Below, piece by piece: positions 1,212-18,515 of a DNA stretch of 20,488 bases. The notes under the pieces were generated by a model. The model ran no database searches, was not told the origin of the DNA, and saw only the letters and a program-made list of their open reading frames with translations. Positions within the stretch are counted from its first letter, which is position 1. Every line of letters starts with the position of its first letter. A program made the position numbers and the translations under genes. The stretch is from Treponema sp. UBA4319 (GTDB lineage Bacteria > Spirochaetota > Spirochaetia > Treponematales > Treponemataceae), in NCBI GenBank assembly GCA_002393865.1, contig DGUD01000199.1:18477-38964 (forward strand), given 5' to 3'.

Positions 1212-2126
1212 TTATTTGTCGTACGCCTTTGCCACATCGGCAGCGATTTTAGCTTTTTGCTCGCGCAGGAATTCCGCGCTCAGCGTCTCCTCCGCTTCGG
1301 TTATGTTGAAGTAGTCTTTGCGGAGCTTGCGGAGACTTCCCTCCTCCACAAGCTTCAGCAGCACAGCGTCAAATTCTTCCTGCAGCTTCTCTTCTCCTTT
1401 GGGGAACACATAGTACAGCCCCGAAGGCGCGTCCTCTTTATTGGCAAAGCGGGCATACTCTTCGTGCGGCACGTTCAGGACGACAAGGTCTTGCAGCCCG
1501 GAGCTTTCGACCTTCTTGTCAAGCGCATACTTCGTAAAGAAGAAGAAATCAATCTGCCGGTTCGATACCTGCAAGTCGTACTCCGACTCGTCGGCATAGA
1601 TTATATTGATGGGATTGTCGGGATGGGCGGCATTCCAGTTCTCGTACGCGTCCGCATTGAAGCTTGCGGGCGTGGCAAGGGTCGAATGCCCGCCAAAGTC
1701 GAACACCGACTTTATGGGGCTGTCCTTGCGGACAACAATCCCGCTCCCGCCGTAATCATAGGGATATGAAAAAAGATACTTTTCTGCCCGCGCCCGGTTG
1801 TAGCCAAGGTGGTTCACCCCAAGCTGGTACATCCCGCTGTCAAGCCCCGTAAAGATAGAGGCGAATTCGGTGACAACGAATTTCGGCTCGTACTGGGGGA
1901 GCTGCTCAAACACCAGCCGGATGACATCGATGTCGTAGCCGCCGGAATTCCCGTTGTCGTCCACGGTAATCCACGGGTTCGGGCCGGTGCTGGAAGCTAT
2001 CGTGATGACACGCTTCTTGCCGTTATCCCCCTGGGCCGCGGCATCCTTTTTCCCTCCGCAAGAAACAAGCGTCCCTGCCGCAAGCGCAAGCGATGCCACC
2101 GCCACAATGCTCATAATTGTCTTCAT
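1212..2126 (-). CDS. Amino-acid-type ABC transporter substrate-binding lipoprotein
   Basis: 304 residues. A signal peptide ends in a lipobox LVSC with the lipidated Cys at about residue 23, followed by a charged linker, so it should be an envelope-anchored periplasmic lipoprotein. The rest reads as a family-3 solute-binding protein (type 2 periplasmic fold, as in cystine and polar amino acid importers): the start of lobe 1 contains NSGGYDIDVIRLVFEQL, and later come GYNRARAEKYLFSYPY, a segment giving S-x-F-D-F-G-G, and the final EGSLRKLRKDYF. The ATG at 2126 is chosen because AAGGAG lies six bases upstream; an upstream in-frame ATG at 2147 is less well placed. No permease or ATPase is next to it, so those would be encoded elsewhere or beyond base 1. 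A promoter, a CCTA-N9-TAGG operator and an attenuator-like terminator precede it. The ligand is unknown; a sulfur amino acid or N-acyl derivative fits the context. Confidence 0.85.
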   Translation of the reverse strand: MKTIMSIVAVASLALAAGTLVSCGGKKDAAAQGDNGKKRVITIASSTGPNPWITVDDNGNSGGYDIDVIRLVFEQLPQYEPKFVVTEFASIFTGLDSGMYQLGVNHLGYNRARAEKYLFSYPYDYGGSGIVVRKDSPIKSVFDFGGHSTLATPASFNADAYENWNAAHPDNPINIIYADESEYDLQVSNRQIDFFFFTKYALDKKVESSGLQDLVVLNVPHEEYARFANKEDAPSGLYYVFPKGEEKLQEEFDAVLLKLVEEGSLRKLRKDYFNITEAEETLSAEFLREQKAKIAADVAKAYDK

Positions 2127-2160
2127 AGGAATCTCCTTCATTCTCAAGTAAAATCAAGTA

Positions 2161-2250: not shown

Positions 2251-2273
2251 AAACCTAGCATTCCCGTAGGTTT
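2251..2273. promoter_or_regulatory. CCTA-N9-TAGG operator, probable Rrf2 site, upstream of the binding-lipoprotein gene
   Basis: A perfect 7-bp dyad AAACCTA/TAGGTTT separated by nine bases; the 17-bp core is 2254-2270. It sits just downstream of the minus-strand -10 region, over the expected transcription start, which suits repression. The same core recurs at 3012, 3048, 12883 and 12924 and nowhere else that I could find in the window. Confidence 0.65.
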
Positions 2274-3044: not shown

Positions 3045-3047
3045 TAA

Positions 3048-3064
3048 CCTATCAAACAACTAGG
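3048..3064. promoter_or_regulatory. Operator site 2 of the nitrogenase-like operon
   Basis: CCTATCAAACAACTAGG, a CCTA-N9-TAGG dyad extended to AACCTA/TAGGTT. It covers the predicted transcription start, a position expected for a repressor. Its centre is 36 bp from site 1. Confidence 0.65.
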
Positions 3065-3094
3065 TTTATATTTTACTGTGTAAGGAGCCTTTTG

Positions 3095-3544
3095 ATGGCT
3101 TACAGAATTGCGGTGGCGTCTTCGGACGGTGTACATGTTGACCGCCACTTTGGCGGTGCGGAAGAGTTCTCAATCTATGCGGTGGACGATGGCGGCAGCT
3201 TCTCGTTCCTAGAGAGGCGCGCTGCCCCTGCCGGAAACAGCGGCGGGGATGCGGCGGACTGCGCCGGACAGGGCGGTGGCTGCGAGGCATCCCCCTGCGG
3301 GAACTCAGGTGGCGGATGTGCGGCGGGTGCTTGTGGCAGCGGAGGCGGGGCTTCCGTAAAGGTGCAGCTCATTGCCGATTGCCGCGCCGTCGTCTGCGCA
3401 AGAATCGGATTCAACGTGCAGAAGCAGCTGGAGCGCAAGGCGATTGCCAGCTTTGACGTGGAATGCCCGGTCGATGAGGCGCTGGAGAAAATCGCGAAGT
3501 ATTTTTTCAGCATGGACAACCATATCCGCTTCGGCAAAGCGTGA
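3095..3544 (+). CDS. NifX / NifB-C-terminal-like iron-molybdenum-cofactor-binding domain protein with Cys/Gly-rich insert
   Basis: 149 residues. The fold is that of the dinitrogenase cofactor-binding family (NifX, NafY, NifB C-terminus): it starts MAYRIAVASSDG, has DRHFGGAEEFSIY with the family His at residue 18, and later DCRAVVCARIG followed by a helix and DVECPVDEALEKI. Such proteins carry cofactor precursors such as NifB-co to the acceptor enzyme. Odd is an insert at about residues 50-86, almost only Gly, Ala, Ser and Cys, with Cys at 56, 63, 68, 75 and 80; three more Cys (96, 101, 124) lie in the domain. The insert could bind a metal or cluster. The ATG at 3095 has AAGGAG seven bases upstream; a TTG just before it is not needed. 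It is the first gene of the operon and is followed 25 bases later by the D subunit, so it probably helps to mature that enzyme. Confidence 0.8.
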   Translation: MAYRIAVASSDGVHVDRHFGGAEEFSIYAVDDGGSFSFLERRAAPAGNSGGDAADCAGQGGGCEASPCGNSGGGCAAGACGSGGGASVKVQLIADCRAVVCARIGFNVQKQLERKAIASFDVECPVDEALEKIAKYFFSMDNHIRFGKA

Positions 3545-3569
3545 GCCAGTGATTCAAGGGGGAATGTGC

Positions 3570-5021
3570 ATGGCAGTTCAGTATTCAGGAGTCCGGGAAA
3601 GCCGGGCAGGCCGCGTGAACGACGCGGGAATCTCAAGCCGCATCGCGGAGGAGCAGTTCAGGAAAGGCTGCCTCAAGCGGGCGGACAGGAGCTTTGCGCA
3701 AGGCCTGCAGTGCCAGCAAATCAACAGCATGGCGTGCCTGATGAGCTTGGAGGACTCCGTGTTCGTGAGCCATTCTCCGCAGGGCTGCGTCGGCTGCACC
3801 ATCATGGCGGTGGATATGTACCGCGTGGGGCAGGCACACCGCGGCATCAAGACCATCAGGAACCCGCGCATCATCGTGACGAACCTTGACCAGAAAAGCG
3901 TGGTCTTTGGCGGCGAGCAGAAACTACGAGAATCGGTGGCAAAGGCTGTGGAGCGCTACAAGCCAAAGCTTGTCTTTGTCTACGCGTCGTGCGCATCTGG
4001 AATCATCGGCGACGACATCGACGCTATCTGCGCAAGCATGGGCACGGAATACCCCGGCACCGTCATCATTCCCATACACTGCGAGGGCTTTAAGTCAAAA
4101 ATCTGCGCAAGCGGTTTTGACGCGGCATTCCTTGCGATAAACAAGTACATCCTCAAGAAAGAGAAAAAACCGGTGGTACCGAACCTTGTGAACCTCTTCG
4201 CCCCCACGACGGTAAGCTATGCCGATCAGGTGGAGATGGAGCGGATGCTCGCGCTCATCGGCGCAGAGGTGAACTACATTCCCTTCTACAGCTCGCTTGA
4301 GAAAATACGGCGCATTCCGCAGGCGGTGGCAAGCACATCCATCTGCAAGGTATTCGCCGACGAATTCATGAAGACGCTCGAAGAAGATTACGGCATTCCC
4401 TACTCGCACACAGTCATGCCCATAGGCATACGCAACACGGACAAATGGTACCGCGGCATCGCAAAGGTGCTGGGCAAAGAGAAGGAAGTGGAGGAAATCA
4501 TCGCGCGCGAGCATGAGCGCATAGAGCCGCTGGTCGCAAAGATTCGCGCCAAGCTTGAGGGCAAGCGCGTGTTCATCTGCGGCGGTACCGGGCGGAGCTT
4601 TGCGGCGGCAGCGCTGATTGACGACTTTGGCATGAAGCTGGTCGGGCTGGAGACGCCCACCTATGATGACGACGCGCAGGTAGACGTGGAATACCTGAAC
4701 GGCATCCACAAGGACTTTGTGATTGACGTGGCGAACATGCAGCCCTTTGAGCAGGTGAACCTTATCAAGAAGCTCAAGCCGGACGCCTTTATCGGTGTGC
4801 CGGACTGGGCCGCAAAGCTCGGCATTCCCACCACGCACGTGCTTGACGGCAAGCGCCCCACGATGGGCTACGACGGGCTCCTGTATCTTGGCAACAAAAT
4901 TGCCGACCAGCTGAGCAATCCCGGATTCAACAAGAAACTGGCAGCGCACGTAAAGCTGCCCTACAAGGAAAGCTGGTACGAAGAGGATGCCTTCAAGTAT
5001 ATCACAGGAGGCCAGGCATGA
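3570..5021 (+). CDS. Nitrogenase-like component 1, alpha (D) subunit
   Basis: 483 residues, nitrogenase component 1 family. By hand alignment to NifD the three P-cluster cysteines are present: Cys48, Cys73 (SPQGC) and Cys141 (ASCASGIIGDD). Cys259, exactly 18 residues before the Pro of DYGIP as in NifD Cys275, and His423, 13 residues before the Gly of GYDG as in NifD His442, match the FeMo-cofactor ligands. The NifD residues Arg96, Gln191 and His195, important for N2 reduction, fall on Val81, Cys179 and Phe183, so this is unlikely to fix nitrogen. It should form a D2K2 complex with the next gene and take electrons from a NifH-like reductase not encoded here. The ATG at 3570 is chosen because AGGGGG lies seven bases upstream; ATG 3564 is too close, and in-frame codons back to 3372 overlap the previous gene. 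A C-S bond-cleaving role, as in methylthio-alkane reductase, is inferred from the neighbours. Confidence 0.9.
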   Translation: MAVQYSGVRESRAGRVNDAGISSRIAEEQFRKGCLKRADRSFAQGLQCQQINSMACLMSLEDSVFVSHSPQGCVGCTIMAVDMYRVGQAHRGIKTIRNPRIIVTNLDQKSVVFGGEQKLRESVAKAVERYKPKLVFVYASCASGIIGDDIDAICASMGTEYPGTVIIPIHCEGFKSKICASGFDAAFLAINKYILKKEKKPVVPNLVNLFAPTTVSYADQVEMERMLALIGAEVNYIPFYSSLEKIRRIPQAVASTSICKVFADEFMKTLEEDYGIPYSHTVMPIGIRNTDKWYRGIAKVLGKEKEVEEIIAREHERIEPLVAKIRAKLEGKRVFICGGTGRSFAAAALIDDFGMKLVGLETPTYDDDAQVDVEYLNGIHKDFVIDVANMQPFEQVNLIKKLKPDAFIGVPDWAAKLGIPTTHVLDGKRPTMGYDGLLYLGNKIADQLSNPGFNKKLAAHVKLPYKESWYEEDAFKYITGGQA

Positions 5022-6307
5022 GTTTTGTCACAGAGAATCCGAGGGGAGGCTGCGTCCTTGCCGGAGTAAATTCGGTGCTGGCGGCGATTGACCGCGTCTG
5101 TCCCATCCTGCATTCAGGGCCAGGCTGCTGCATGCAGACGACCGCCGCCGAGCAGGGGCAGAGCGGGCACAAGCACGCATGCTTCGTGAGCGGCGTCTCG
5201 CTCCCCTCAAGCAACATGCTGGAGCGGGAAGTCGTCTTTGGCGGCACAAACAAACTGCGCAGCACCATACGCGGCGCCACGGAAATCATAGACGCGGACG
5301 CATACTTTGTGCTCACCGGCTGCACGGCAGGCATCATCGGTGACGACATCGCGAGCGTAACGGACGAGTTCCGCGCGGAAGGCTACAAGGTATATCCGAT
5401 TGAGACGCCCGGCTTCGCGGGGGATTCCAGCCTCGGCTACGAGACGGTGTGGAACACCTTCATTGACAAGGTGATTCAGCAGCCGCAGAAAAAGAATCCC
5501 AAGCTGGTGAACGTATTCGGCATTGTGCCTTACCACGACCCGTTCTGGAGCGGCACACTGGAAGAAATAGAGCGCATCCTTACGCGGCTTGGGCTCACGG
5601 TGAACACGTTTTTTACGCGGCATCAGGGGCTTGACGTGGTGGAGCACTGCGCCGAGGCGGAGCTGAACATCATCGTGAACCCGTGGCTGTTCAAGGGGCC
5701 TGCAAAAAAATTCCAGGAGAAATTCGGCGTGCCGTCGCTGCGCTTTCCCTTTGTGCCTGTCGGCGCCACGGATACGACGCGTTTTGTGCGCGAGGTGGCC
5801 GCAGCGCTCCGGCTGGACAGCGCGCTCGTGGAGAAAGTCATCGCCGACGAGGAAGATTACGTCTATTCCTACCTTGCGCAGTCAATCGGCGCACTTAGCT
5901 GGAAGCGCTTTGCCGTCGCCGGGGACGCATCTGCGGTAGCAGGCATCACGCGCTATCTCGCCAACGACTACAGCTTCAGCCCGGTGCTGGCCATTGTCAC
6001 GGAGCAGATTTTCCGCCCGGAGGACAAAGAGCGTATCGTGCAGTCGCTGTCCACGCTGGAATACGCCGCAGCGCCGCGCATCGTGTTCGCGGCAGACCAG
6101 TGGGAAATAAATCAGGCGATACGCAGGGAAGCTGAGGAAATCACGCTGCTTGTGGGAAGCACGAATGAAAAGGAAGTCGCGCTGGAGAAAGGCATCCAGT
6201 ACCTGAACGCGACATTCCCGATGAACGAGAGGCTCGTGTTCAACCGCACATACTGCGGCTACCGCGGCAGCCTCACGCTCACCGAGGACTTGTACGACAA
6301 CTTGTAA
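5018..6307 (+). CDS. Nitrogenase-like component 1, beta (K) subunit
   Basis: 429 residues, shorter than NifK (about 520) because it lacks the long N-terminal extension. The three P-cluster cysteines are at Cys12 (NPRGGC), Cys37 (HSGPGC) and Cys102 (TGCTAGIIGDD). The 12-to-37 spacing of 25 equals NifK Cys70-Cys95. The family core VVFGGTNKLR follows. No cofactor ligands are expected in this subunit. ATG overlaps the D stop codon (ATGA) with AGGAGG six bases upstream, so synthesis is translationally coupled and probably 1:1. With D it forms the catalytic component carrying the P-cluster at the interface. NifN or BchB-type scaffold relatives were considered, but the intact cluster ligands in both chains and the transporter/sulfur-enzyme context favour an enzyme. 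Confidence 0.9.
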   Translation: MSFVTENPRGGCVLAGVNSVLAAIDRVCPILHSGPGCCMQTTAAEQGQSGHKHACFVSGVSLPSSNMLEREVVFGGTNKLRSTIRGATEIIDADAYFVLTGCTAGIIGDDIASVTDEFRAEGYKVYPIETPGFAGDSSLGYETVWNTFIDKVIQQPQKKNPKLVNVFGIVPYHDPFWSGTLEEIERILTRLGLTVNTFFTRHQGLDVVEHCAEAELNIIVNPWLFKGPAKKFQEKFGVPSLRFPFVPVGATDTTRFVREVAAALRLDSALVEKVIADEEDYVYSYLAQSIGALSWKRFAVAGDASAVAGITRYLANDYSFSPVLAIVTEQIFRPEDKERIVQSLSTLEYAAAPRIVFAADQWEINQAIRREAEEITLLVGSTNEKEVALEKGIQYLNATFPMNERLVFNRTYCGYRGSLTLTEDLYDNL

Positions 6308-6344
6308 GCAAGGAACTTTCTGAATTCATCCTGAGGAGGTATAT

Positions 6345-7421
6345 ATGAAAAAAATGAAAGGAATCGGACTGGCAATAGTTTTTACCGCAGCGCTGGCAAG
6401 CGGAGCGCTCTTTCCGTCCTGCAAGGGCAAGCAGGAGGAATTCTGCTTTAAGATAGGAACCGCGAATTCCAGCCTCTGTCCTGCCCCGCTCCACGTGGCA
6501 ATCGACCTCGGTCTGTTTGAAGAAGAATTCAGCAAGGCCGGGCTGAAATACGAGACCATCGAGATAGACCTGATGCAGGCGACAGCCCTTGTGGTGGCAA
6601 AGAAAATCGACGCGACGCTGGGGCTTGCCGGCAGCCTGCTCCCGCAGCTGGACAACGGGCTGGAAGTAAGCTTTCTGAGCGGCGTGCACACAGGCTGCAC
6701 AAAATTCTATGTAAAGGCAGACTCTCCCTACCACAGCATTGCCGACCTGAAGGGCAAGACCATCGGGCTGTGCGGCGTGCAGGATTCATCGACGGTGGTG
6801 TTCCAGCGGAAATTCCACGAACTGGGCTACACGGCTTTCGGCGCGGACGCGGACTTTACGATTGCCGTCTACGGGCTTACCGATTTGCCGCTCGCGCTCG
6901 AGAACGGCGCCGTGGACGCGGTGGGGCTGCACGACCCCGTCGGCTACATCGCGGAGCGCGATTACGGCTTCAGGAAAATCCTCGACACCACCGAGGACGA
7001 AGTCTTCAGCCAGGAGTACTGCTGCCTTACCTATGTCTCAAGCGAGATAGCGAAGAAGTACCCCGAGCACACAAAGGCGTTTGTCCGCGCCATGCTCAAG
7101 GCGAGCGCCTACGTGCAGGCGAACCCGGACAAGACGGCGCAGCTCCAGATAGACAACGGGCGCATTGCGGGCGACAGCGCACAGAACGCGACGCTCCTTG
7201 CCTCGTACAACTACACGCCGTCGGTGGGGCTTGCCCGCAAGACCCTGTACAACTCCATCGATCAGGTGGTCGACATGGGCATCATGCAGAACGTCAGCGA
7301 CAAGGACGCGTTCGTCAGCGAGCATTTCGTGGTCTTTGACGACGTGCCTGACTCCTACGTCTACAACAACAGCGACGGGACATATTCGGAATCAAAGGTG
7401 GGCTCGCTGCGAAAGCACTAG
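6345..7421 (+). CDS. SsuA/TauA/NMT1-type ABC substrate-binding lipoprotein
   Basis: 358 residues. A signal peptide ends in a relaxed lipobox FPSC (Cys26), so this should be a lipoprotein outside the inner membrane. The mature part follows the NMT1/SsuA pattern: FKIGTANSSLCPAPLHVAIDLGLFEEEFSKAGL, a strand and helix ending in LVVAKKIDATLGLAGSLLPQL, SIADLKGKTIGLCG, then ALENGAVDAVGLHDPVG. This family binds alkanesulfonates, taurine, nitrate or thiamine precursors. AGGAGG lies five bases before the ATG, and the gene starts 37 bases after K. Placed directly behind the nitrogenase-like subunits, it probably captures the organic (sulfur) compound they reduce. Two extra Cys pairs or singles (CC near residue 227, C125) are of unknown meaning. 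A strong hairpin follows and may keep this transcript abundant relative to the permease. Confidence 0.88.
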   Translation: MKKMKGIGLAIVFTAALASGALFPSCKGKQEEFCFKIGTANSSLCPAPLHVAIDLGLFEEEFSKAGLKYETIEIDLMQATALVVAKKIDATLGLAGSLLPQLDNGLEVSFLSGVHTGCTKFYVKADSPYHSIADLKGKTIGLCGVQDSSTVVFQRKFHELGYTAFGADADFTIAVYGLTDLPLALENGAVDAVGLHDPVGYIAERDYGFRKILDTTEDEVFSQEYCCLTYVSSEIAKKYPEHTKAFVRAMLKASAYVQANPDKTAQLQIDNGRIAGDSAQNATLLASYNYTPSVGLARKTLYNSIDQVVDMGIMQNVSDKDAFVSEHFVVFDDVPDSYVYNNSDGTYSESKVGSLRKH

Positions 7422-7431
7422 CGCAGCCGCA

Positions 7432-7474
7432 GGGCACGGCGTGCAGCATCCGTAAGGATATGCGCGCCGTGCCC
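7432..7474 (+). other. Intercistronic hairpin between binding-protein and permease genes
   Basis: GGGCACGGCGTGC (7432-7444) pairs with GCGCGCCGTGCCC (7462-7474): 13 bp with one G-U pair, and the loop carries ATCC/GGAT. No T run follows, so it is not a terminator. Such structures often protect the 3' end of a binding-protein mRNA. Confidence 0.7.
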
Positions 7475-7494
7475 TGGTACCCAAGGAAGATACT

Positions 7495-8457
7495 ATGAAC
7501 AAGAAACTGAAAACCGTCGGAACCTATGCGCTGCCGTTCCTTGCGGCATTGCTCTCCGTCGTCCTGTACTTTGCGCTCCCGGAAAGCGGGAAGCAGAAGA
7601 AAATGCCCGCCCCGTTTTATATCTGGTTCCTCGCCGCAGCGGTGTGCGCCCTTGTGATTGCCATCGTCGCAGGCTGCTTTGCGAAAGACTTCGGGAAAAA
7701 GCTATACGGCAAGCTCCCCTTCTACACGGGAATCATCACGTTCCTTGCGCTGCTGAACACGCTCGTCTCTAAGACGGCGCTGCTCCCGGTGCTCTACTTT
7801 CCGTCGCTGGACAAAATCTGCGGACTGCTGTGGACGCAGAAAGTATTCCTGCTGAAGAACCTGCTGTTCTCGCTGGGGCTGCTGGCGCAAGGATTCATAT
7901 ACGGCCTTGCCGTCGGATTCTTTACCGGGCTTGCGCTCGGCTACAACCGGCACGTGGGCTACTGGCTGAACCCGGTGACGAAATTCCTGGGGCCGGTTCC
8001 CACGACTGCATGGATACCGCTGGCGCTCAGCGTGTTCCCCACCACGCACGGGGCAAACGTATTCCTTATCGCCTTTGCGGTGTGGTTCCCGGTAACGCTC
8101 ATGACGGCAAGCGGCATACAGAGCGTGAGCAAAGTATTCTTTGAGGTGAGCGAGACGCTCGGCGCAAAGACACTCTTCAAGGTCTTCCGCGTAGCAGTCC
8201 CCGCAAGCCTGCCGCAGATTTTCCTCGGGCTCTTTTACGGCATCGTGTCCTCCTTCGCCACGCTGATGGCGGTGGAGATGAACGGCAACTCGCAGGGCAT
8301 CGGCTGGTACATCAACTGGCAGAAGTCCGTCATGCAGTATGACGGCGTGTACGCGGGGCTTATCATCATTGCCATCCTGTGCTCGTTCATCCTGACGCTG
8401 CTGTTCAAAATCCGCGACAAAGTCATGGTGTGGCAGAAGGGGGTAATCCGATGGTAG
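7495..8457 (+). CDS. SsuC/TauC-type ABC transporter permease
   Basis: 320 residues and strongly hydrophobic, with about seven to eight membrane segments; two lie at the N-terminus (residues 10-28 and 43-62) before the usual core. The cytoplasmic EAA loop that docks the ATPase reads ETLGAKTLFKVFRVAVPASLPQI, about residues 220-242. GPVPTTAWIPLALSVF earlier is typical of the binding-protein-dependent permeases of the nitrate/sulfonate/taurine group. It is larger than most SsuC proteins (about 260) because of the extra N-terminal pair of helices. AAGGAAG lies six bases before the ATG. Its stop codon overlaps the ATPase start, so both are made together. It forms the inner-membrane channel for the ligand bound by the preceding lipoprotein. 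Confidence 0.9.
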   Translation: MNKKLKTVGTYALPFLAALLSVVLYFALPESGKQKKMPAPFYIWFLAAAVCALVIAIVAGCFAKDFGKKLYGKLPFYTGIITFLALLNTLVSKTALLPVLYFPSLDKICGLLWTQKVFLLKNLLFSLGLLAQGFIYGLAVGFFTGLALGYNRHVGYWLNPVTKFLGPVPTTAWIPLALSVFPTTHGANVFLIAFAVWFPVTLMTASGIQSVSKVFFEVSETLGAKTLFKVFRVAVPASLPQIFLGLFYGIVSSFATLMAVEMNGNSQGIGWYINWQKSVMQYDGVYAGLIIIAILCSFILTLLFKIRDKVMVWQKGVIRW

Positions 8458-9215
8458 GGAACATCCAAATCAATCACGTCACCAAGAATTTCGACGAGGT
8501 GCGCGTGCTGAATGATTTTTCGCTCGACATTGAGCCGGGCAGCTTTGTCAGCCTTATCGGGCCATCCGGCTGCGGAAAATCGACGCTGCTCAGGATTATC
8601 GGCGGACTCGAAAAACAATACGACGGTTCCGTGAGCCTTGACGGGGAAAAAATCCTCCGGGCAGGAAGCGACAGAGGTTTCGCGTTCCAGGGGTCCAATC
8701 TCTTTCCGTGGCTTACCGTCAGGAACAATATCTCGTTCGGTCTGAAAGCCCGCAAGCTGTACAAGGAGCACAAGCAGGACGTGAACGACATCATCAGGCT
8801 TGTAGGGCTGGAAGGATTTGAAGATTCCTATCCCCACCAGATTTCGGGCGGCATGCAGCAGAGGGCATCATTGGCACGCGCGCTCGTGGGGCATCCGAAA
8901 GTCCTGCTGCTCGACGAGCCGCTCGGCGCGCTGGACGCATTCACCCGGATGAACCTGCAGGATGAGATTCTGCGCATAAAAAATGAGAACAACATGACCA
9001 TGATTATGGTGACGCATGATGTCGATGAGGCAATCTACATGAGCGACAAAGTTGTGGTGATGAGCGCACGGCCTTCAAAAGTGGAGGCCGTGATAGACAT
9101 TGACCTGCCGAAACCTCGCGTGCGCGTGCAGGACACATTCGCGCTGTACCGCAACAAGGTGCTTGAAATCCTTAACCTTGGCGGAAAACTGCACGAAGCA
9201 GAATACAATATTTAG
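8451..9215 (+). CDS. SsuB/TauB-type ABC transporter ATPase
   Basis: 254 residues. All ATPase motifs are in order: Walker A GPSGCGKST near residue 38, Q-loop FQGSNLFPW, signature ISGGMQQR (Ile instead of the usual Leu), Walker B VLLLDEP, D-loop and the switch His in MVTHD. The length and the C-terminal MSARPSKVEAVIDIDLPKPR segment are those of the nitrate/sulfonate/taurine importer ATPases. The ATG at 8451 overlaps the permease stop, with GGGGG about seven bases upstream; in-frame codons further upstream lie inside the permease. It energises import of the putative substrate of the nitrogenase-like enzyme. Confidence 0.92.
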   Translation: MVGNIQINHVTKNFDEVRVLNDFSLDIEPGSFVSLIGPSGCGKSTLLRIIGGLEKQYDGSVSLDGEKILRAGSDRGFAFQGSNLFPWLTVRNNISFGLKARKLYKEHKQDVNDIIRLVGLEGFEDSYPHQISGGMQQRASLARALVGHPKVLLLDEPLGALDAFTRMNLQDEILRIKNENNMTMIMVTHDVDEAIYMSDKVVVMSARPSKVEAVIDIDLPKPRVRVQDTFALYRNKVLEILNLGGKLHEAEYNI

Positions 9216-9257
9216 AGCAGCTTCAAAAGTCCCTGGCAACGTGTTGCCGCGGGCTCT
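9214..9257 (+). other. Weak hairpin between ATPase and PLP-enzyme genes
   Basis: A 14-base palindrome GGCAACGTGTTGCC (9235-9248) lies inside a loose outer stem AGAGC/GCTCT (9214-9218, 9253-9257). Only TTTA follows. It may be a partial terminator or a processing site; the next gene starts 28 bases later and is probably still in the operon. Confidence 0.3.
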
Positions 9258-9284
9258 TTAAAAGTGGCTCTTGAGGAGATACGA

Positions 9285-10457
9285 ATGGCACTAGCAGCAG
9301 AAACAAAATGCCTGCACCTTGATGCAGAGCTCTCAGCGGCGGCGGGCGCGGCACCTGCGAGGAAAGACTGCACGCATTACGGGGCAATAAGCTTTCCTAT
9401 TTATCAGACCGCGACGTATGCGCATCCGGGAGCAGGACAAAGCACGGGCTTTGACTACTCGCGGCTTCAGAATCCTACCCGCGAGCAGCTTGAAAAAGTC
9501 ATCTGCTCCCTGGAGAACGGCACGGACGCCCTTGCGCTGTCAAGCGGCATGGCAGCGATAAGCATCCTGATGGAGCTGTTCCGGCCGGGAGACCATCTGA
9601 TTGTTGACAGCGACCTTTACGGCGGAGCAATCAGGCTTTTCGACAATGTATCCGCAAAGAACGGCATCTCATTCACGCGGGCAAACTGCTCCGTTGAGGA
9701 TATAGAATCCTTGATACGGCCGGAAACAAAAGCGATATACATCGAGACGCCGACAAACCCCATGATGAACGTGACGGACATCGCCGCGACAGCAGGAATC
9801 GCACGGCGCCACGGTCTGCTGCTCATCGTGGACAACACGTTCATGTCGCCCTACTTCCAGAACCCGCTCAGCCTCGGAGCCGACGTCGTGATTCACTCCG
9901 GGACAAAGTACCTTGCAGGCCACAACGACACGCTCGCGGGATTCATCGTGACGAACAACGCAAACGTGCAGGAGCGGCTCCGTTTTCTCATAAAGACAAC
10001 CGGGGCAGGTCTTGCGCCGTTTGACTGCTGGCTTACCCTACGGGGAATAAAGACGCTCGCAGTCCGCATGGAAAAATCGCAGCAGAACGCCGGAAAAATC
10101 GCACGCTGGCTCTGCACGCAGCCATCCGTCACAAAGGTCATATATCCGGGGCTCGAAGACCATCCCGGTCACAGCATCATGAAACAGCAGGCGCGTGGAT
10201 TCGGGGCAATGATAACATTCCGGACAGAGACGACGGAAAAAGCGCTGTCAGTCCTGAGCCGCGTGAAACTGATACAGTACGCGGAAAGCCTTGGCGGCGT
10301 GGAGACGCTCATCACGTACCCGACGACCCAGACCCATGCGGATGTGCCGGAGGAGCTCCGCCTGAAAAACGGCATTACCCCCACGACTCTGCGGCTTTCC
10401 GTGGGCATAGAGAACACAGACGACTTAATCTGCGACCTTGCGCAGGCGCTCGGCTAA
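9285..10457 (+). CDS. Cys/Met metabolism PLP-dependent enzyme (cystathionine gamma-synthase / O-acylhomoserine sulfhydrylase type)
   Basis: 390 residues, fold-type I PLP enzyme. Marks: YSRLQNPTREQLE near residue 60, SSGMAAI, the ETPTNPMM loop, VDNTF (PLP Asp), and the Schiff-base Lys208 in SGTKYLAGH. GLAPFDCWLTLRGIKTLAVRME and the final TTLRLSVGIE are typical. The family includes MetB, MetC, MetZ/MetY and methionine gamma-lyase; motif reading cannot separate them. The length fits MetB/MetC/MetZ better than the longer MetY (about 430). The start ATG 9285 has GAGGAG six bases upstream, better than a GTG at 9264. As last gene of the operon it could fix sulfide or methanethiol released by the nitrogenase-like enzyme onto an activated homoserine, giving homocysteine or methionine; that role is inference. 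Confidence 0.9.
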   Translation: MALAAETKCLHLDAELSAAAGAAPARKDCTHYGAISFPIYQTATYAHPGAGQSTGFDYSRLQNPTREQLEKVICSLENGTDALALSSGMAAISILMELFRPGDHLIVDSDLYGGAIRLFDNVSAKNGISFTRANCSVEDIESLIRPETKAIYIETPTNPMMNVTDIAATAGIARRHGLLLIVDNTFMSPYFQNPLSLGADVVIHSGTKYLAGHNDTLAGFIVTNNANVQERLRFLIKTTGAGLAPFDCWLTLRGIKTLAVRMEKSQQNAGKIARWLCTQPSVTKVIYPGLEDHPGHSIMKQQARGFGAMITFRTETTEKALSVLSRVKLIQYAESLGGVETLITYPTTQTHADVPEELRLKNGITPTTLRLSVGIENTDDLICDLAQALG

Positions 10458-10463
10458 GAAAGC

Positions 10464-10496
10464 GCAGCCCCGCAAGCGCGACCTTGCGGGGGCTGC
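10464..10496. terminator. Bidirectional hairpin between convergent genes
   Basis: GCAGCCCCGCAAG pairs with CTTGCGGGGGCTGC (13 bp plus one bulged G) around a 6-base loop, exactly between the convergent stops of the PLP enzyme and the LolD-type ATPase. T runs are short on both strands (GCTTTCTT on minus), so it probably serves both operons with moderate strength. Confidence 0.65.
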
Positions 10497-10509
10497 ATGC
10501 GGCTTCCAT

Positions 10510-11154
10510 TCATATTCTGATTATTTCGTCGCATCTCTGCAGCGCATCCGCATCATGGCTGACCATGAGCACCGTCCTTCCTTCATCCGCGAGCGCCCTG
10601 AATATCTCCACGACAGCAGTGGCCTGTTCTTTCTCCAGGGAGCCTGTCGGCTCATCCGCAAGGATAATGCCGGGCTCGTTCATAAGCGCCCGCGCTATCA
10701 GCACGCGGTGGTTCTCTCCCCCGGAAAGCTCCGCCGGATAACAGTCCGCGAGGTGCCCGATGCCAAGGCTTTCCAGCAGCTGATCCGCCCGCTCCTCCGT
10801 TCGCGCCCGCTTTCTGCCGTCTCCCAGAAAAGCGGGCAGGCGGACATTGTCCCGTACCGTCAGATGCGCAAGAACGCTCTGCTCCTGCGATACAAAGCCG
10901 ATGTTCTGATTGCGGAATAAGGCACGGCGCCTGTCATCCAGCACAAAGATATCCGTGCCATCAATCAAGACCTGCCCCTCATCCGGCTCCTGCAATCCCG
11001 CGATTATGGAAAGGAGCGTGCTTTTCCCCGCCCCTGACTTGCCCGCAATCCCGAAGCACGAGCCGGACGGAACCGTAAAGCTAAAATCGCGGAGCACCGG
11101 GACGACTCCCCGTGGCGAAGGAAATGTTTTTGAGATACCGTTGACCCGTATCAT
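10510..11154 (-). CDS. LolD/MacB-type ABC transporter ATPase
   Basis: 214 residues. Walker A GKSGAGKST near residue 38, Q-loop VSQEQSVLAHLTV, signature LSGGENHR (usual form LSGGEQQR), Walker B IILADEPTG and switch His in MVSHD. The short length and the ADEPTGSL motif place it with ATPases that work with FtsX/MacB-type permeases, which move lipids, peptides or drugs or pull on envelope proteins rather than import small solutes. It is the last gene of a three-gene minus-strand unit, eight bases behind the FtsX-type permease. The His in the signature is uncommon and may be a subfamily mark. Confidence 0.9.
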   Translation of the reverse strand: MIRVNGISKTFPSPRGVVPVLRDFSFTVPSGSCFGIAGKSGAGKSTLLSIIAGLQEPDEGQVLIDGTDIFVLDDRRRALFRNQNIGFVSQEQSVLAHLTVRDNVRLPAFLGDGRKRARTEERADQLLESLGIGHLADCYPAELSGGENHRVLIARALMNEPGIILADEPTGSLEKEQATAVVEIFRALADEGRTVLMVSHDADALQRCDEIIRI

Positions 11155-11162
11155 CGCTCCTC

Positions 11163-12350
11163 CTACTTTGCTTCCGCGTACAGCTCAAGTTTTGAGATGC
11201 GCAGCGCCGCATGCGACGCGCTCAGGATACAGGAAGCCGTCACTATGACGAATGCAGCCAGCGCCAAAAGCACAAGCATCCCGATGCCCGGCATACAGAA
11301 TGGCATGGAGATTTTCCGGGATATAAGGATATTGAACGGAAGCAGGACAAGCGCGGAAAGCGATATGCCGCACAGCGAGCCGGAGATTCCAAAGACGAGC
11401 GCCTCGTACAGCACCAGAGAGCGGATTTTCGCTTTGTCTGCGCCCAGCACCCGCATGATGGAGAATTCCCGGCGCCGCTCATACAACGTAAGCGAGAACA
11501 CCAGTGCCAGAGAAAGCACGGTGACAAGGAGGAAGAGCACGCTCATCGCAGCGAGGAAGGCGGAGAACGAGGCTGTGCTCTCCGCAAGCGTGCGGATAAA
11601 TTTGTCCTGCCGGACAATCTGTATGCCGTCCACCGCCTGCCGTATCTTCATGGCGGCAGTATCAGCTTTTGCTCCGTCCGCCAGCCGCACAAAAATCGCG
11701 CTGGCCAGCGACTCCACATTCCCGTCGGAGAAAAAGCTGAATCCTTTTTCCTTCGCATCCTGAAAAATCGCACGGACAGTCGCCCCATCCGCAAAGATGG
11801 CATTGTCCATCCCGGAGCCGCTTTTCGCAAGCTTCGCGACGACGCGGTGTCTCTTTGAGAAAAAGGAGACGTAGCCGTTCTCCACAGAGACATTGCTTCC
11901 CGCAAAGACGGAGCCTTCTTCCCCGCTATATTTCTGCACCCACGGCTTTATGAGGAAATCGCTGTCAACGTCAAAGCCGATTATCTGCACGGGGAAGTCG
12001 CAACATGACTCGCTCAGGCTGCTCAGATAAAACTGGCTCGTCACCGCAGCGACGCCTTCCACGCCGCGCACCGTATCCTCAATGCCCTTGTCCATGTAAA
12101 AATAATTCGGCTCGCCGGAAAGCAGAACTCCCTCAAGGCTCCGTTCGTAGCCTTCAGGGACTATCATAAGGTCGGCGCCTATCCGCTCCCGCATGCCGGC
12201 AATTCCGTTCCTCAGGCTGACCGCAAGCAGAAAGCTGGCGAAAAGGACTGCCGCCGAAACGGCGACCAGCGCACCCAGCAGGAAAGCCCTGAGCGGCTTG
12301 CGGGCAATGCTCTTTGTTGCCAGCGACCATGAAGACAATGCGCTGCCCAT
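11163..12350 (-). CDS. FtsX/MacB-type ABC transporter permease
   Basis: 395 residues. One membrane helix near the N-terminus (about residues 20-45), an extracytoplasmic domain of about 220 residues, then three helices in the C-terminal third: the standard four-helix MacB/FtsX plan. GADLMIVPEGYE after helix 1 and REFSIMRVLGADKAKIRSLVLYEAL before the last helices are typical of this group. The outer domain contains a vicinal Cys pair in SESCCDFPV, which might bind metal or form a disulfide. The start at 12350 lies four bases after the DUF4418 stop; the Shine-Dalgarno is poor (AAGG 14 bases upstream), so coupling to the upstream gene is likely. Longer in-frame starts overlap DUF4418 and are rejected. 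Substrate unknown. Confidence 0.85.
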   Translation of the reverse strand: MGSALSSWSLATKSIARKPLRAFLLGALVAVSAAVLFASFLLAVSLRNGIAGMRERIGADLMIVPEGYERSLEGVLLSGEPNYFYMDKGIEDTVRGVEGVAAVTSQFYLSSLSESCCDFPVQIIGFDVDSDFLIKPWVQKYSGEEGSVFAGSNVSVENGYVSFFSKRHRVVAKLAKSGSGMDNAIFADGATVRAIFQDAKEKGFSFFSDGNVESLASAIFVRLADGAKADTAAMKIRQAVDGIQIVRQDKFIRTLAESTASFSAFLAAMSVLFLLVTVLSLALVFSLTLYERRREFSIMRVLGADKAKIRSLVLYEALVFGISGSLCGISLSALVLLPFNILISRKISMPFCMPGIGMLVLLALAAFVIVTASCILSASHAALRISKLELYAEAK

Positions 12351-12354
12351 ACGC

Positions 12355-12768
12355 TCAGCGCGCCTTGCCGGAACGCCTGCCACGGAAAAGCAGCACGGCA
12401 TCCGCAGCAGCAACCGCCAGCAGGAGGATTCCCAGCACAATGAGCGCAGGCTGCGTGACGGCGTGGCAGTGCATCCTGGAGCCGCCGCACACACCAATCA
12501 GCACCGTGGGGAACAGGATGATTCCTGCCGCATCCGCAATGATAGCGGCATCAAGCCCCAGCAAAAAAGATTCCGGGCGCGCAAAGAAGCGGAGCAGCGC
12601 AAATGCCGCGGCACACAGACCGGTAAAAAGCACAGCCCGCGCAGTCCAGTGGCATCGCATGACGGTCTCGCCAAGCGGGCAGACCTTGGCAAAGGTATAC
12701 GGAGCGACTGCGGCAAGCAGGGCAAGCGCCAGCAGCACAGCGGAAAACACAACGCGACTTTTCTTCAT
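12355..12768 (-). CDS. DUF4418 family membrane protein
   Basis: 137 residues with four hydrophobic helices (about 7-26, 45-62, 70-92, 106-128). Two Cys/His motifs stand at helix ends: CPLGETVMRCHWT (Cys30, Met37, Cys39, His40) and CGGSRMHCHAVT (Cys94, Met99, His100, Cys101, His102). These are the signature of DUF4418, a family of unknown function often found with FtsX-type permeases. The repeated M-x-C-H pattern on one membrane face suggests binding of a soft metal such as copper, or haem; this is inference. GGAGG lies five bases before the ATG. It is the first gene of the unit driven by the minus-strand half of the divergent promoter, hence probably under the Rrf2 regulator. Confidence 0.8.
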   Translation of the reverse strand: MKKSRVVFSAVLLALALLAAVAPYTFAKVCPLGETVMRCHWTARAVLFTGLCAAAFALLRFFARPESFLLGLDAAIIADAAGIILFPTVLIGVCGGSRMHCHAVTQPALIVLGILLLAVAAADAVLLFRGRRSGKAR

Positions 12769-12882
12769 ATAAACCTCCGAGTCAGTTTCAAAAGCTCTGG
12801 CTGACGCGCGCAGAAGAATGCGGCGCAGCAGCCAAAAACAGAACGGGTTCCCTGAGAATCGCGCTCTTCAGGAATCCTATTA

Positions 12883-12899
12883 CCTATTGATTTACTAGG
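12883..12899. promoter_or_regulatory. Operator core, left arm of the divergent promoter
   Basis: CCTATTGATTTACTAGG. It holds the plus-strand -35 (TTGATT) and lies over the start of the minus-strand transcript, so one protein bound here could block both directions. Confidence 0.65.
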
Positions 12900-12915
12900 C
12901 AATATATGGTATACT
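12887..12915 (+). promoter_or_regulatory. Promoter of the PatB-like lyase / Rrf2 unit
   Basis: TTGATT (12887-12892), spacer 17, TATACT (12910-12915). The leader to the lyase start is about 255 nt. The geometry relative to the operators repeats that of the nitrogenase-like promoter. Confidence 0.65.
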
Positions 12916-12936
12916 CTATTTATCCTAGTAAGTCAA
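12908..12936 (-). promoter_or_regulatory. Promoter of the DUF4418-FtsX-ABC unit
   Basis: Read on the minus strand: TTGACT (12936-12931), spacer 17, TATACC (12913-12908). It overlaps the plus-strand promoter almost base for base. The leader is about 130 nt and ends in GGAGG five bases before the DUF4418 ATG. Confidence 0.6.
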
Positions 12937-12940
12937 TAGG
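12924..12940. promoter_or_regulatory. Operator core, right arm of the divergent promoter
   Basis: CCTAGTAAGTCAATAGG; its complement differs from the left-arm core at one base. It covers the plus-strand start region and contains the minus-strand -35. Confidence 0.65.
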
Positions 12941-12947
12941 TAATAGG

Positions 12948-13176: not shown

Positions 13177-14355
13177 ATGGACTACAGTTTTGATACCATC
13201 ACAGACAGAAGGAACACCTTTGCCGCAAAATACGACCTTGCGCAAAAGCGCGGAAAACCAAGCGACGCCATAAGCCTGTGGATTGCGGACATGGATTTTC
13301 CCACGGCGCCATGCATCCGGCAGGCACTGGAAGAGCGCGCGCGGCACGGCATCTTCGGCTACAGCCGCCCGGACGCCCGCTATTACGCCGCCGTCAGCGC
13401 ATGGTTCAGCAAAAGGCATCATTTTGCCGTCGAAGAAGCATGGATTGTGAACACACCCGGCGTGGTCTTTGCCATCGCAACCGCCATCCGAGCCTTTACA
13501 AAAGAAGGCGACGGCGTGCTGATACAGAGGCCCGTCTACTACCCGTTCTCAAACACCATAACGGCGCAGAACCGCCGCGTCGTGAACAATCCGCTCGTAT
13601 TCAGGGACGGCCATTACGAGATTGACTTTGCCGATTTTGAGGCAAAAATACGGGACGAGCATATACAGGTATTCGTGCTCTGCTCGCCGCACAACCCCGG
13701 CGGGCGCGTCTGGAAACGGGCGGAGCTGGAGCAGATTGAGAGGATTTGCCGCGCATACGGCGTGCTGGTCATATCAGACGAGATTCACTGCGACATCACC
13801 TTTGGCGGCAACACACACACGATATACGCATCGCTCTCGGAAGAAGCGGCGCAGCATTCCATCATCTGCACCTCGCCAAGCAAGACATTCAACCTTGCCG
13901 GGCTCCAGTTCTCGAACATCATCATCCCGAACGAAAAAATCCGCGCGGCATTCCAGGACGAGATAGACCGCACCGGCTACGACGAGCCGAGCCTGATGGG
14001 GCTTGCCGCCGCCACCGCCGCCTATCAGGACGGAGAGGAATGGTTCGATAAGGCAAAGGACTACATCTACAGCAACATCCTGTTCACCGAAGACTACGTC
14101 CGCGCGCACTGCCCGAAAATCCGCGTGCACCGCCCGGAAGGCACATATCTTGTGTGGCTGGATTTCTCGGCATTCACAGAGCTGAGCGACCGGGAAATCT
14201 CCCTACGCGTCCTGAACAAGGCGAAGGTCTGGCTGGATTACGGCACGATGTTCGGCACAGAAGGAGCGAAATTCCAGCGCCTGAACGTCGCTACCCCGCG
14301 CCCGCTTCTTGAAAAGGCGCTCGCGCAGATATGCGCGGAATTCTGTAAGGATTAG
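13177..14355 (+). CDS. MalY/PatB-family C-S beta-lyase (cystalysin-like)
   Basis: 392 residues, fold-type I PLP enzyme of the MalY/PatB group. It starts MDYSFDTITDRRNT, with LWIADMDFPTAP (substrate Asp region), the segment WIVNTPGVV, PVYYPF, FCSPHNPGGRVW-type LCSPHNPGGRVW, SDEIHCDI (PLP Asp) and the Schiff-base Lys236 in SPSKTFNLAG; the C-terminal EGTYLVWLDF holds the carboxylate-binding region. It is close in layout to cystalysin of Treponema denticola (Lys238), an L-cysteine desulfhydrase that gives sulfide, pyruvate and ammonia; cystathionine beta-lyase is the other common activity. GAGGAG is six bases before the ATG. It is followed 11 bases later by the Rrf2 gene, so enzyme and regulator are co-transcribed from a promoter with two operators. 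It probably supplies or recycles reduced sulfur. Confidence 0.92.
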   Translation: MDYSFDTITDRRNTFAAKYDLAQKRGKPSDAISLWIADMDFPTAPCIRQALEERARHGIFGYSRPDARYYAAVSAWFSKRHHFAVEEAWIVNTPGVVFAIATAIRAFTKEGDGVLIQRPVYYPFSNTITAQNRRVVNNPLVFRDGHYEIDFADFEAKIRDEHIQVFVLCSPHNPGGRVWKRAELEQIERICRAYGVLVISDEIHCDITFGGNTHTIYASLSEEAAQHSIICTSPSKTFNLAGLQFSNIIIPNEKIRAAFQDEIDRTGYDEPSLMGLAAATAAYQDGEEWFDKAKDYIYSNILFTEDYVRAHCPKIRVHRPEGTYLVWLDFSAFTELSDREISLRVLNKAKVWLDYGTMFGTEGAKFQRLNVATPRPLLEKALAQICAEFCKD

Positions 14356-14366
14356 GAGGACAAGAG

Positions 14367-14792
14367 ATGTACAGGATTTCGACTCGCGGACAATATGCGC
14401 TCCTCATCATGACCGATCTTGCCGAGAACGACTGCGGGAAATGCATCTCGCTCAAGCTGCTGTCGCACAGGAGGAACCTGCCGATAAAATACCTTGAGCA
14501 GATTCTGCTCCAGCTTGGCAAGAACGGTTTTGTGAGCGGCTCGCGGGGAACAAACGGCGGCTACAAGCTGAACCGGGACGCATCCGAATACACGGTAGGT
14601 GAGATCCTGCGGGCCATGGAAGGAGATTTGTCGCCCCGCGGCAGCACGGAGAGCAATCACCTGAGCTCCGCCGGGAACGAATACTTCTGGAACGATTTTG
14701 AGCAGCGGATAAACGATTTTGTCGATTCGGTGACGCTGGAAGACCTTGTCCAGAAAAACACAGAATTCATCGGCTACGAATACTGCATCTGA
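14367..14792 (+). CDS. Rrf2-family transcriptional regulator (CymR-like, without Fe-S cysteines)
   Basis: 141 residues. The N-terminal winged helix is typical: YRISTRGQYALLIMTDLA, LPIKYLEQILLQLGKNGFV (recognition helix region), SGSRGTNGGYKL (wing) and YTVGEILRAMEGDL. Rrf2 members that sense Fe-S or NO (IscR, NsrR, RsrR) carry three Cys around residues 90-106; here Cys occur only at 23, 26 and 140, so a cluster is unlikely. This matches CymR, the cysteine-metabolism repressor that works with cysteine synthase. AGGAGG lies seven bases before the ATG. It is downstream of the lyase in the same unit, whose promoter holds two CCTA-N9-TAGG sites, so autoregulation is likely, along with control of the nitrogenase-like operon and the binding-lipoprotein unit that share the site. 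The effector is unknown. Confidence 0.9.
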   Translation: MYRISTRGQYALLIMTDLAENDCGKCISLKLLSHRRNLPIKYLEQILLQLGKNGFVSGSRGTNGGYKLNRDASEYTVGEILRAMEGDLSPRGSTESNHLSSAGNEYFWNDFEQRINDFVDSVTLEDLVQKNTEFIGYEYCI

Positions 14793-18343: not shown

Positions 18344-18515
18344 CAGGAACAGACAACGTGCAGGAAAATTTTGCCGCGCGGAAAGCGATTTTCGGGCGGC
18401 GCGTCCCCCTGCTCCTCTATGCCCCGGAAGCACGGCACGGTACAGCTGAACTGTCCGGAAAGCCCTTGCTTTCCTAAGAGCGCTGGTCTCCAAGGAGTCC
18501 CGGAAAGCTCACCAA

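Follow-up and report, generated by a model that had tools for sequence, protein, structure and literature searches.

A nitrogenase-like gene pair associated with sulfur amino acid genes in Treponema sp. UBA4319, a predicted reductase of organic sulfur compounds

This analysis concerns two nitrogenase-like genes, D2 and K2, and the operon that houses them in Treponema sp. UBA4319. The window, i.e. the whole stretch of DNA analysed, is 20,488 nucleotides long and corresponds to positions 18,477 to 38,964 of contig DGUD01000199.1 (G000:C90:18477-38964). Seven plus-strand genes, spanning positions 3095-10457 and separated by gaps of 25, -4, 37, 73, -7 and 48 bp, make up a single compact operon. 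Open reading frames, frames and protein families agree with the original prediction, which had listed a NifX-like protein, D and K subunits, an SsuABC-type importer and a Cys/Met pyridoxal phosphate (PLP) enzyme:

3095..3544, plus strand: NifX2, NifX/NafY-type cofactor-binding protein with a Cys/Gly-rich insert (PF02579, 57 bits)
3570..5021, plus strand: D2, nitrogenase-like alpha subunit, 483 aa (PF00148, 276 bits)
5018..6307, plus strand: K2, nitrogenase-like beta subunit, 429 aa (PF00148, 248 bits)
6345..7421, plus strand: SBP2, SsuA/NMT1-type substrate-binding lipoprotein (PF09084, 64.5 bits)
7495..8457, plus strand: importer permease (PF00528, 68.5 bits; best NCBIfam model SaoP, 112 bits, below cut-off)
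8451..9215, plus strand: importer ATPase (PF00005, 117 bits; best NCBIfam model SaoA, 268 bits, below cut-off)
9264..10457, plus strand: Cys/Met PLP enzyme, similar to cystathionine gamma-lyase (CGL) and homocysteine desulfhydrase (PF01053, 483 bits)
~10465..10497, no strand: GC-rich stem-loop between convergent genes, read by eye; a weaker stem adjoins

NifX2 matches both NifB C-terminal and NifX models below their cut-offs. It features 8 Cys in 149 aa (5-11 Cys in 46 of the 48 relatives scored), and the Cys/Gly-rich insert is perhaps a cluster-carrying segment. SBP2 scores 77 bits against TIGR01728, the SsuA family model (cut-off 163.5), and has weak PDB matches to THI5 and SsuA; the best NCBIfam model of the PLP enzyme, PRK07671, gives 453 bits (cut-off 594). 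Purine-rich ribosome-binding sites were recognized by eye at most starts in the operon; GTG 9264 has none, and ATG 9285 is therefore the likelier start of the PLP enzyme. The stem-loop marks the probable end of the operon. At gathering thresholds the Rfam scan of the window gave no match, and the promoter scan found one site where 3.0 were expected.

By sequence, methylthio-alkane reductase (MAR) is the closest relative of D2K2 among solved structures, and the same is true of a second pair, D1K1, encoded upstream of the window. D2 best matches MarD in the PDB (249 bits, vs. 111 for NifE), K2 best matches MarK (256 bits), and fold searches returned only MAR, nitrogenase, NifEN and DPOR chains among the best 50 matches listed. 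This supports for both subunits the comparison with MAR made when the operon was first noticed. The best NCBIfam model of D2 is NifE, at 179 bits against a cut-off of 505. In a tree of D proteins D2 forms a clade of its own (support 100/99), separate from the nitrogenase/NifE group (100/100); the phylogeny proposed as a check thus places the D subunit, which the tree covers, outside that group. On clade position and model scores the pair was rejected as a true nitrogenase or NifEN, and the NifE score, together with the greater closeness to MarD, sets D2 apart from NifEN scaffolds by sequence. Annotations of D2 proteins as 'nitrogen fixation protein NifE' or 'nitrogenase molybdenum-iron protein alpha chain' occur in several public records.

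The MAR cluster is bound by Cys270 and His429, the latter residing in loop I, which is specific to MarD, and Arg428-His429 has been proposed as the hallmark of the enzyme; as the His sits in different loops in MAR and nitrogenase, its ancestral site could not be inferred by the MAR authors (PMC12552129). D2 residues C48, C73, C141, C259 and H423 are kept in 177/177 and 201/201 aligned rows, K2 residues C12, C37 and C102 in 74/74, and D2K2 hence has the Cys270-type ligand and three P-cluster Cys in each subunit. The hallmark is missing: loop I in the window reads FIGVPDWAA, and the loop-I columns of D2 proteins are devoid of His in 176 of 177 rows. A loop-I His (RHxG or GHxx) occurs in all printed rows outside the D2, nitrogenase/NifE and Isr-pattern groups, the last being rows labelled from the published description of isethionate reductase (Isr; PMC11423573), not from a reference sequence. 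D2 His423 precedes GYDG by ten residues, which is the spacing of NifD His442 to GFDG; MAFFT sets the two His two columns apart, phmmer pairs them. We infer that His423 may bind the cluster, and D2 appears to hold its metal cluster differently from MAR, the nearest known relative. Arg342 of D2 is found at the site of NifD Arg359, Cys179 where MarD has Trp195 and NifD Gln191, and Phe183 where NifD has His195. Grouping of all loop-I-His rows in one clade was not rejected by the approximately unbiased (AU) test (p 0.109). A further D clade of 15 proteins features GHxx in loop I (support 100/98), and comes mostly from clostridial genomes, two members being from the order of Treponema sp. UBA4319 (loci L102, L111, L120, L141, L158-L166, L168 and L173).

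The operon is part of a larger locus. The 18.5 kb preceding the window on the same contig (L004) hold a CysK that passes the cysK cut-off, a second CysK-like protein that does not, an O-acetylhomoserine sulfhydrylase-type gene, a MATE gene, a polar amino-acid importer, a NifX-like protein, a NifB-like radical-SAM protein devoid of a NifX domain (235 bits; the nifB cut-off is 344) and the D1K1 pair. A NifH-like gene, taken as missing in the original prediction, lies at G000:C90:9975-10784, 7.7 kb before the window start (462 bits, over the nifH cut-off of 394), and had escaped notice because the window edge excludes it. The genome (84% complete) carries two DK pairs only, D1K1 and D2K2, and one strong NifH.

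D1 has the complete MAR set, Arg411-His412, Trp180, Phe184, His360 and Cys255 (MarD Arg428-His429, Trp195, Phe199, His375 and Cys270) being kept in 28/28 rows. Ile replaces MarD His194 in the same 28 rows, and D1 falls outside the subclade of MarD. D1 was monitored in 22 of 80 carrier genomes, and found in 18, including all 12 isolates (as labelled in the records); it is absent from four metagenome-assembled genomes (MAGs). Treponema bryantii NK4A124, Eubacterium ruminantium ATCC 17233 and Butyrivibrio hungatei NK4A153 are isolates having both D1 and D2. D1-type genes (at least 60% identity) reside in 16 genomes among 97 relatives of the own genome, 10 of which have no D2-type gene (at least 46%); a partial match in G022 was excluded, and some genomes are incomplete (G015 is 99%, G048 95% complete). 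D1K1 is therefore independent of D2K2, and D2K2 usually, but not always, accompanies D1K1. The association might mean that one pair is a NifEN-like scaffold for the other, with no second enzyme involved, and the co-occurrence in 18/22 genomes and 12/12 isolates, the frequent location of both pairs within one operon and the single strong NifH fit such a division of labour. The 10 of 16 relatives with D1-type genes only, some of them incomplete, argue against it, as do the four MAGs, possibly incomplete, having D2 and no D1, one of which has NifB and NifH in the same locus (L072). Catalytic MarDK is moreover a closer relative of both pairs than NifEN is, and in MAR itself the cluster is present in its [Fe8S9C] precursor form (PMC12552129). 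A scaffold role is accordingly rated as unlikely. In L115, L118 and L123 (G024, G004 and G058) an extra D gene, 47% identical to D1, lies beside a polar amino-acid importer, which might suggest a separate substrate for each DK cassette.

The D2K2 operon is preceded by an inverted repeat, WACCTA-N9-TAGGTW, that recurs near sulfur genes. The relevant features in the window are:

2252..2272, no strand: second exact WACCTA-N9-TAGGTW operator, between a divergent binding-protein gene and a YbaK-like gene
3046..3066, no strand: operator-like inverted repeat AACCTA-N9-TAGGTT, exact match to WACCTA-N9-TAGGTW, 28 bp before the NifX2 start
12881..12942, no strand: pair of operators, at 12881 and 12922, each with a single mismatch, ahead of patB-rrf2
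13177..14355, plus strand: PatB-family C-S lyase (TIGR04350, 445.6 bits, over the cut-off of 340)
14367..14792, plus strand: Rrf2-family regulator, CymR-like (PF02082, 102.6 bits; TIGR00738, 99.3 bits, over the cut-off of 73.3)
1212..2147, minus strand: polar amino-acid/cystine-type binding protein of a divergent importer-M20 unit (TIGR01096, 67 bits; PRK11260, cystine-binding protein, 45 bits; both below cut-off)

A one-mismatch operator also precedes the upstream CysK (L004:7580). Own-genus and Treponema loci totalling 568 kb, some of them from near relatives and hence non-independent, contain 98 sites with one mismatch at most, against none in 60 kb of control DNA. Many are paired at 34-49 bp, often with TTGAC inside, and for 83 of the 98 a recognized gene starts nearby (NifX2, SBP2, permease, amino-acid binding protein, patB, rrf2, K1, nifH, nifB, cysK, metY and others). 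Exact operators number 3-18 per genome in eight genomes having such D genes, and 0-4 in five genomes lacking them; the reversed pattern gives 0-1 per genome, and the own genome, 84% complete, has three. Twelve stretches with operators outside the locus were inspected. Operators are found before MetQ-like lipoproteins (L197 of the own genome, L201 and, by eye, L206), CysK (L199, L208), MetY (L202), an M20 amidohydrolase (L198), PatB (L207) and, by eye, rrf2 (L207); L200, L203, L204 and L205 carry no gene identification. In locus L029, too, operators precede an rrf2 gene. An operator common to the Clostridia was considered and discarded, the signal being weak (20 sites in 1.04 Mb vs. 1 in 340 kb of control). 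As nitrogenase-like and sulfur genes share the operator in Treponema, together with importers, PatB, MetY, CysK and Rrf2, the former are tied to the Cys/Met supply, in line with the sulfur role first proposed for D and K. The reader of the operator would be the Rrf2 regulator beside patB, which scores 100.5 bits against the CymR model (cut-off 195).

D2 relatives are numerous: 2102 of the 7995 scored in a protein database fall at E<=1e-10, and the best 120 listed are 82-90% identical, those named by organism being from Lachnospiraceae, Clostridiales and Oscillospiraceae. Scanning of GTDB genomes yielded 421 confirmed relatives. The best 80, mostly rumen and gut records, come from Treponema/Spirochaetaceae, Lachnospiraceae, Ruminococcus, Butyrivibrio, Eubacterium and Ruminiclostridium hungatei among others. 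D2 is nonetheless a minority trait. In the Lachnospiraceae-type family to which G102 belongs, 9 of 250 genomes have it at 72% identity or more, two of them being already known carriers, and it occurs at 66% or more in 4 of the 97 relatives, the own genome included. K2 follows D2 in all 80 loci, many of which end at contig ends. Recurrent neighbours are NifX-like proteins (49 loci), CysK (33), D1 (30), Rrf2 (30), NifH (21), SBP2 (21), NifB (20), PatB (15), CGL (13), NifS (11) and CysE (10), the NifS and CysE families being named from one representative each. One order, CysK-NifB-NifX-NifH-CysK-D1-K1-NifX-(Rrf2)-D2-K2, recurs on a single strand; Ruminococcus and clostridial MAGs display K1-NifX-SsuABC-Rrf2-NifS-NifU-CysE-ThiF-D2-K2. 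Of 33 loci at least 19 kb long, 25 have sulfur enzymes near D2, compared with 2 of 20 control windows that were positioned by hand in five of the carrier genomes; for SsuA-like proteins the counts are 11 of 33 and none of 20. The conserved link with an importer and sulfur enzymes, as first suggested, holds in most long loci for the sulfur genes. SsuABC is tightly linked in Treponema, more loosely in Clostridia; there, the neighbours of D2K2 can be polar amino-acid importers or NifS-NifU-CysE genes.

These surroundings bear on the idea that D2K2 is a Group IV-A (Nfa-type) nitrogenase whose L-cluster-like cofactor would serve N2 reduction. For NfaDK of Endomicrobium proavitum a full set of ligands has been predicted, and the organism is reported to incorporate 15N2 in the absence of NifEN (PMC9147875). 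The Cys/His pattern of D2 at nitrogenase-type positions is compatible with this function, and a clade uniting D2 with nitrogenases is tolerated by the AU test. Association with the Cys/Met operator and sulfur genes speaks for another role, however, as does the replacement of NifD Gln191 and His195 by Cys179 and Phe183. NifV did not exceed the cut-off in any of 14 D2-bearing genomes, a weak test, since it failed in all 14 control genomes too. No named Nfa appeared among the best 120 matches of either of two protein searches. Nitrogen fixation of this type is considered hardly probable for D2K2.

Sulfite/nitrite reductase (PF01077) was detected in 1 of the 14 D2-bearing genomes (R. hungatei), vs. 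11 of 14 control genomes. With none seen in 13 carriers, sulfite released from a sulfonate would have no further use through known enzymes, and a step yielding sulfide or thiol, followed by CysK, MetY or CGL, fits better. This makes it improbable that D2K2 frees sulfite from a sulfonate in the manner of Isr, with which it has the SsuABC-type importer in common (PMC11423573). D2 further retains the equivalents of Cys62, Cys154 and Cys275, lacking in IsrD as described in that paper, and Isr-pattern rows form a different clade; identity with Isr was rejected on the ligand pattern.

All in all, D2K2 is rather probably a nitrogenase-like reductase which, equipped with a NifB-made [Fe8S9C]-type cluster and a shared NifH, would cleave the C-S bond of an imported organosulfur compound and deliver sulfide or thiol to Cys/Met synthesis. 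The reading is based on gene content, homology, candidate ligand residues, clade, common operator and the failure to find sulfite reductase in most of the 14 carriers examined; from these we infer both C-S cleavage and the kind of substrate. The upstream NifB-like enzyme would make the cluster and NifX-like proteins would carry it; D2 would receive it at Cys259 and His423, and MAR-like D1K1 in a separate insertion. Both pairs may obtain electrons from the one NifH-like protein via P-cluster-type sites in an ATP-dependent manner. A small organosulfur compound would enter through the SsuABC-type importer, be broken reductively at the C-S bond by D2K2, and the freed sulfide or thiol would be fixed by CysK, MetY or the CGL-like enzyme. 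Shortage of Cys/Met would turn the genes on, probably via the Rrf2 regulator beside patB.

Several observations weigh against this proposal. Monophyly of D2 and the nitrogenase/NifE group is not rejected (p-AU 0.258), and kinship alone is therefore no proof of a C-S enzyme. In eight of the 33 long loci, including those of Butyrivibrio records, E. ruminantium and R. hungatei, none of the sulfur enzymes searched for lies near D2, and SsuABC is not a constant partner of D2K2 outside Treponema. Fifteen of the 98 Treponema-side operators are away from any recognized gene, and the operator is weak or absent in clostridial loci. In a bolder version, put forward tentatively as possible though doubtful, D2K2 would define a new class of enzymes, nitrogenase-type desulfurases that reduce an oxidised or alkylated sulfur compound completely to sulfide and replace sulfite reductase in rumen anaerobes that have none. 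The His ligand of the cluster would then have moved in nature from the MAR loop to the nitrogenase loop.

Enzymes of this kind, MAR and Isr, are already published. MarBHDK of Rhodospirillum rubrum (PDB 9fmg, 9d9u) shares with the system described here D, K, H, a NifB-type maturase, the tie to Met/Cys synthesis, the P-cluster Cys set and the Cys ligand of the [Fe8S9C] cluster. D2 differs by the absence of loop-I Arg428-His429 and of Trp195/His375, a hallmark kept in neighbouring D1, by His423 near the nitrogenase-type position and Arg342, by its own clade and by a dedicated SsuABC importer. IsrBHDK with SsuCAB of Rhodobacter capsulatus likewise couples a nitrogenase-like enzyme to an SsuABC-type importer for organic sulfur; as described in PMC11423573, IsrD keeps only Cys88 of the P-cluster and ligand Cys, lacks both cofactor ligands, and IsrB is not NifB-like. 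NfaDK of Endomicrobium proavitum, Paenibacillus and heliobacteria, compared by description only, is reported to have all cofactor ligands and no NifEN (PMC9147875), while D2 sits in a Cys/Met regulon. Mo-, V- and Fe-nitrogenases (NifDK, VnfDK, AnfDK) share the fold, P-cluster Cys set, Cys275, a His442-type candidate ligand and NifH. They are set apart by identities of at most 25% in the Foldseek matches listed, by Gln191/His195, by the separate clade, and because no NifEN-type pair was seen in the own genome (84% complete), nor NifV over cut-off (controls likewise).

The original prediction had called the system undescribed, which is true in part. A 2012 paper already noted nitrogenase-like genes with Cys275 next to genes for O-acetylhomoserine sulfhydrylase or cysteine synthase, and further ones next to ABC transporters (PMC3464626); Isr with its SsuCAB importer was published in 2024 (PMC11423573). 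Clusters with several DK pairs, and Nfa, have been reported (PMC9147875), nfaD has been described as an outgroup nested next to nitrogenases (PMC9641968), and a termite spirochaete has Group-IV nifDK beside cysteine synthase (PMC13067680). For the D2 clade, its ligand switch and its regulon no paper was found in the open literature, subscription journals being mostly outside that scope.

Two more features of the window deserve mention. The minus-strand M20 amidohydrolase gene at 3-1203 is split into a frame at 3-827 and an M20-like fragment (by eye) at 814-1203, possibly through an assembly fault or a duplicated fragment; an N run lies just outside the window. A MacB-type ABC exporter at 10510-12497, minus strand, is a recurrent neighbour of such clusters in both Treponema and Clostridia.

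As MAR has shown, C-S bond cleavage is within the reach of nitrogenase clusters. D2 is a direct test case for the question of the ancestral His ligand, because it represents a non-nitrogenase clade whose nitrogenase loop carries an invariant candidate His and whose MAR loop is free of His in 176 of 177 rows. The data suggest that some gut and rumen anaerobes may win sulfur by means of nitrogenase-like enzymes, possibly freeing thiols or hydrocarbons, and that the labels 'NifE' and 'nitrogenase' in gut genomes are not to be taken as a sign of nitrogen fixation.

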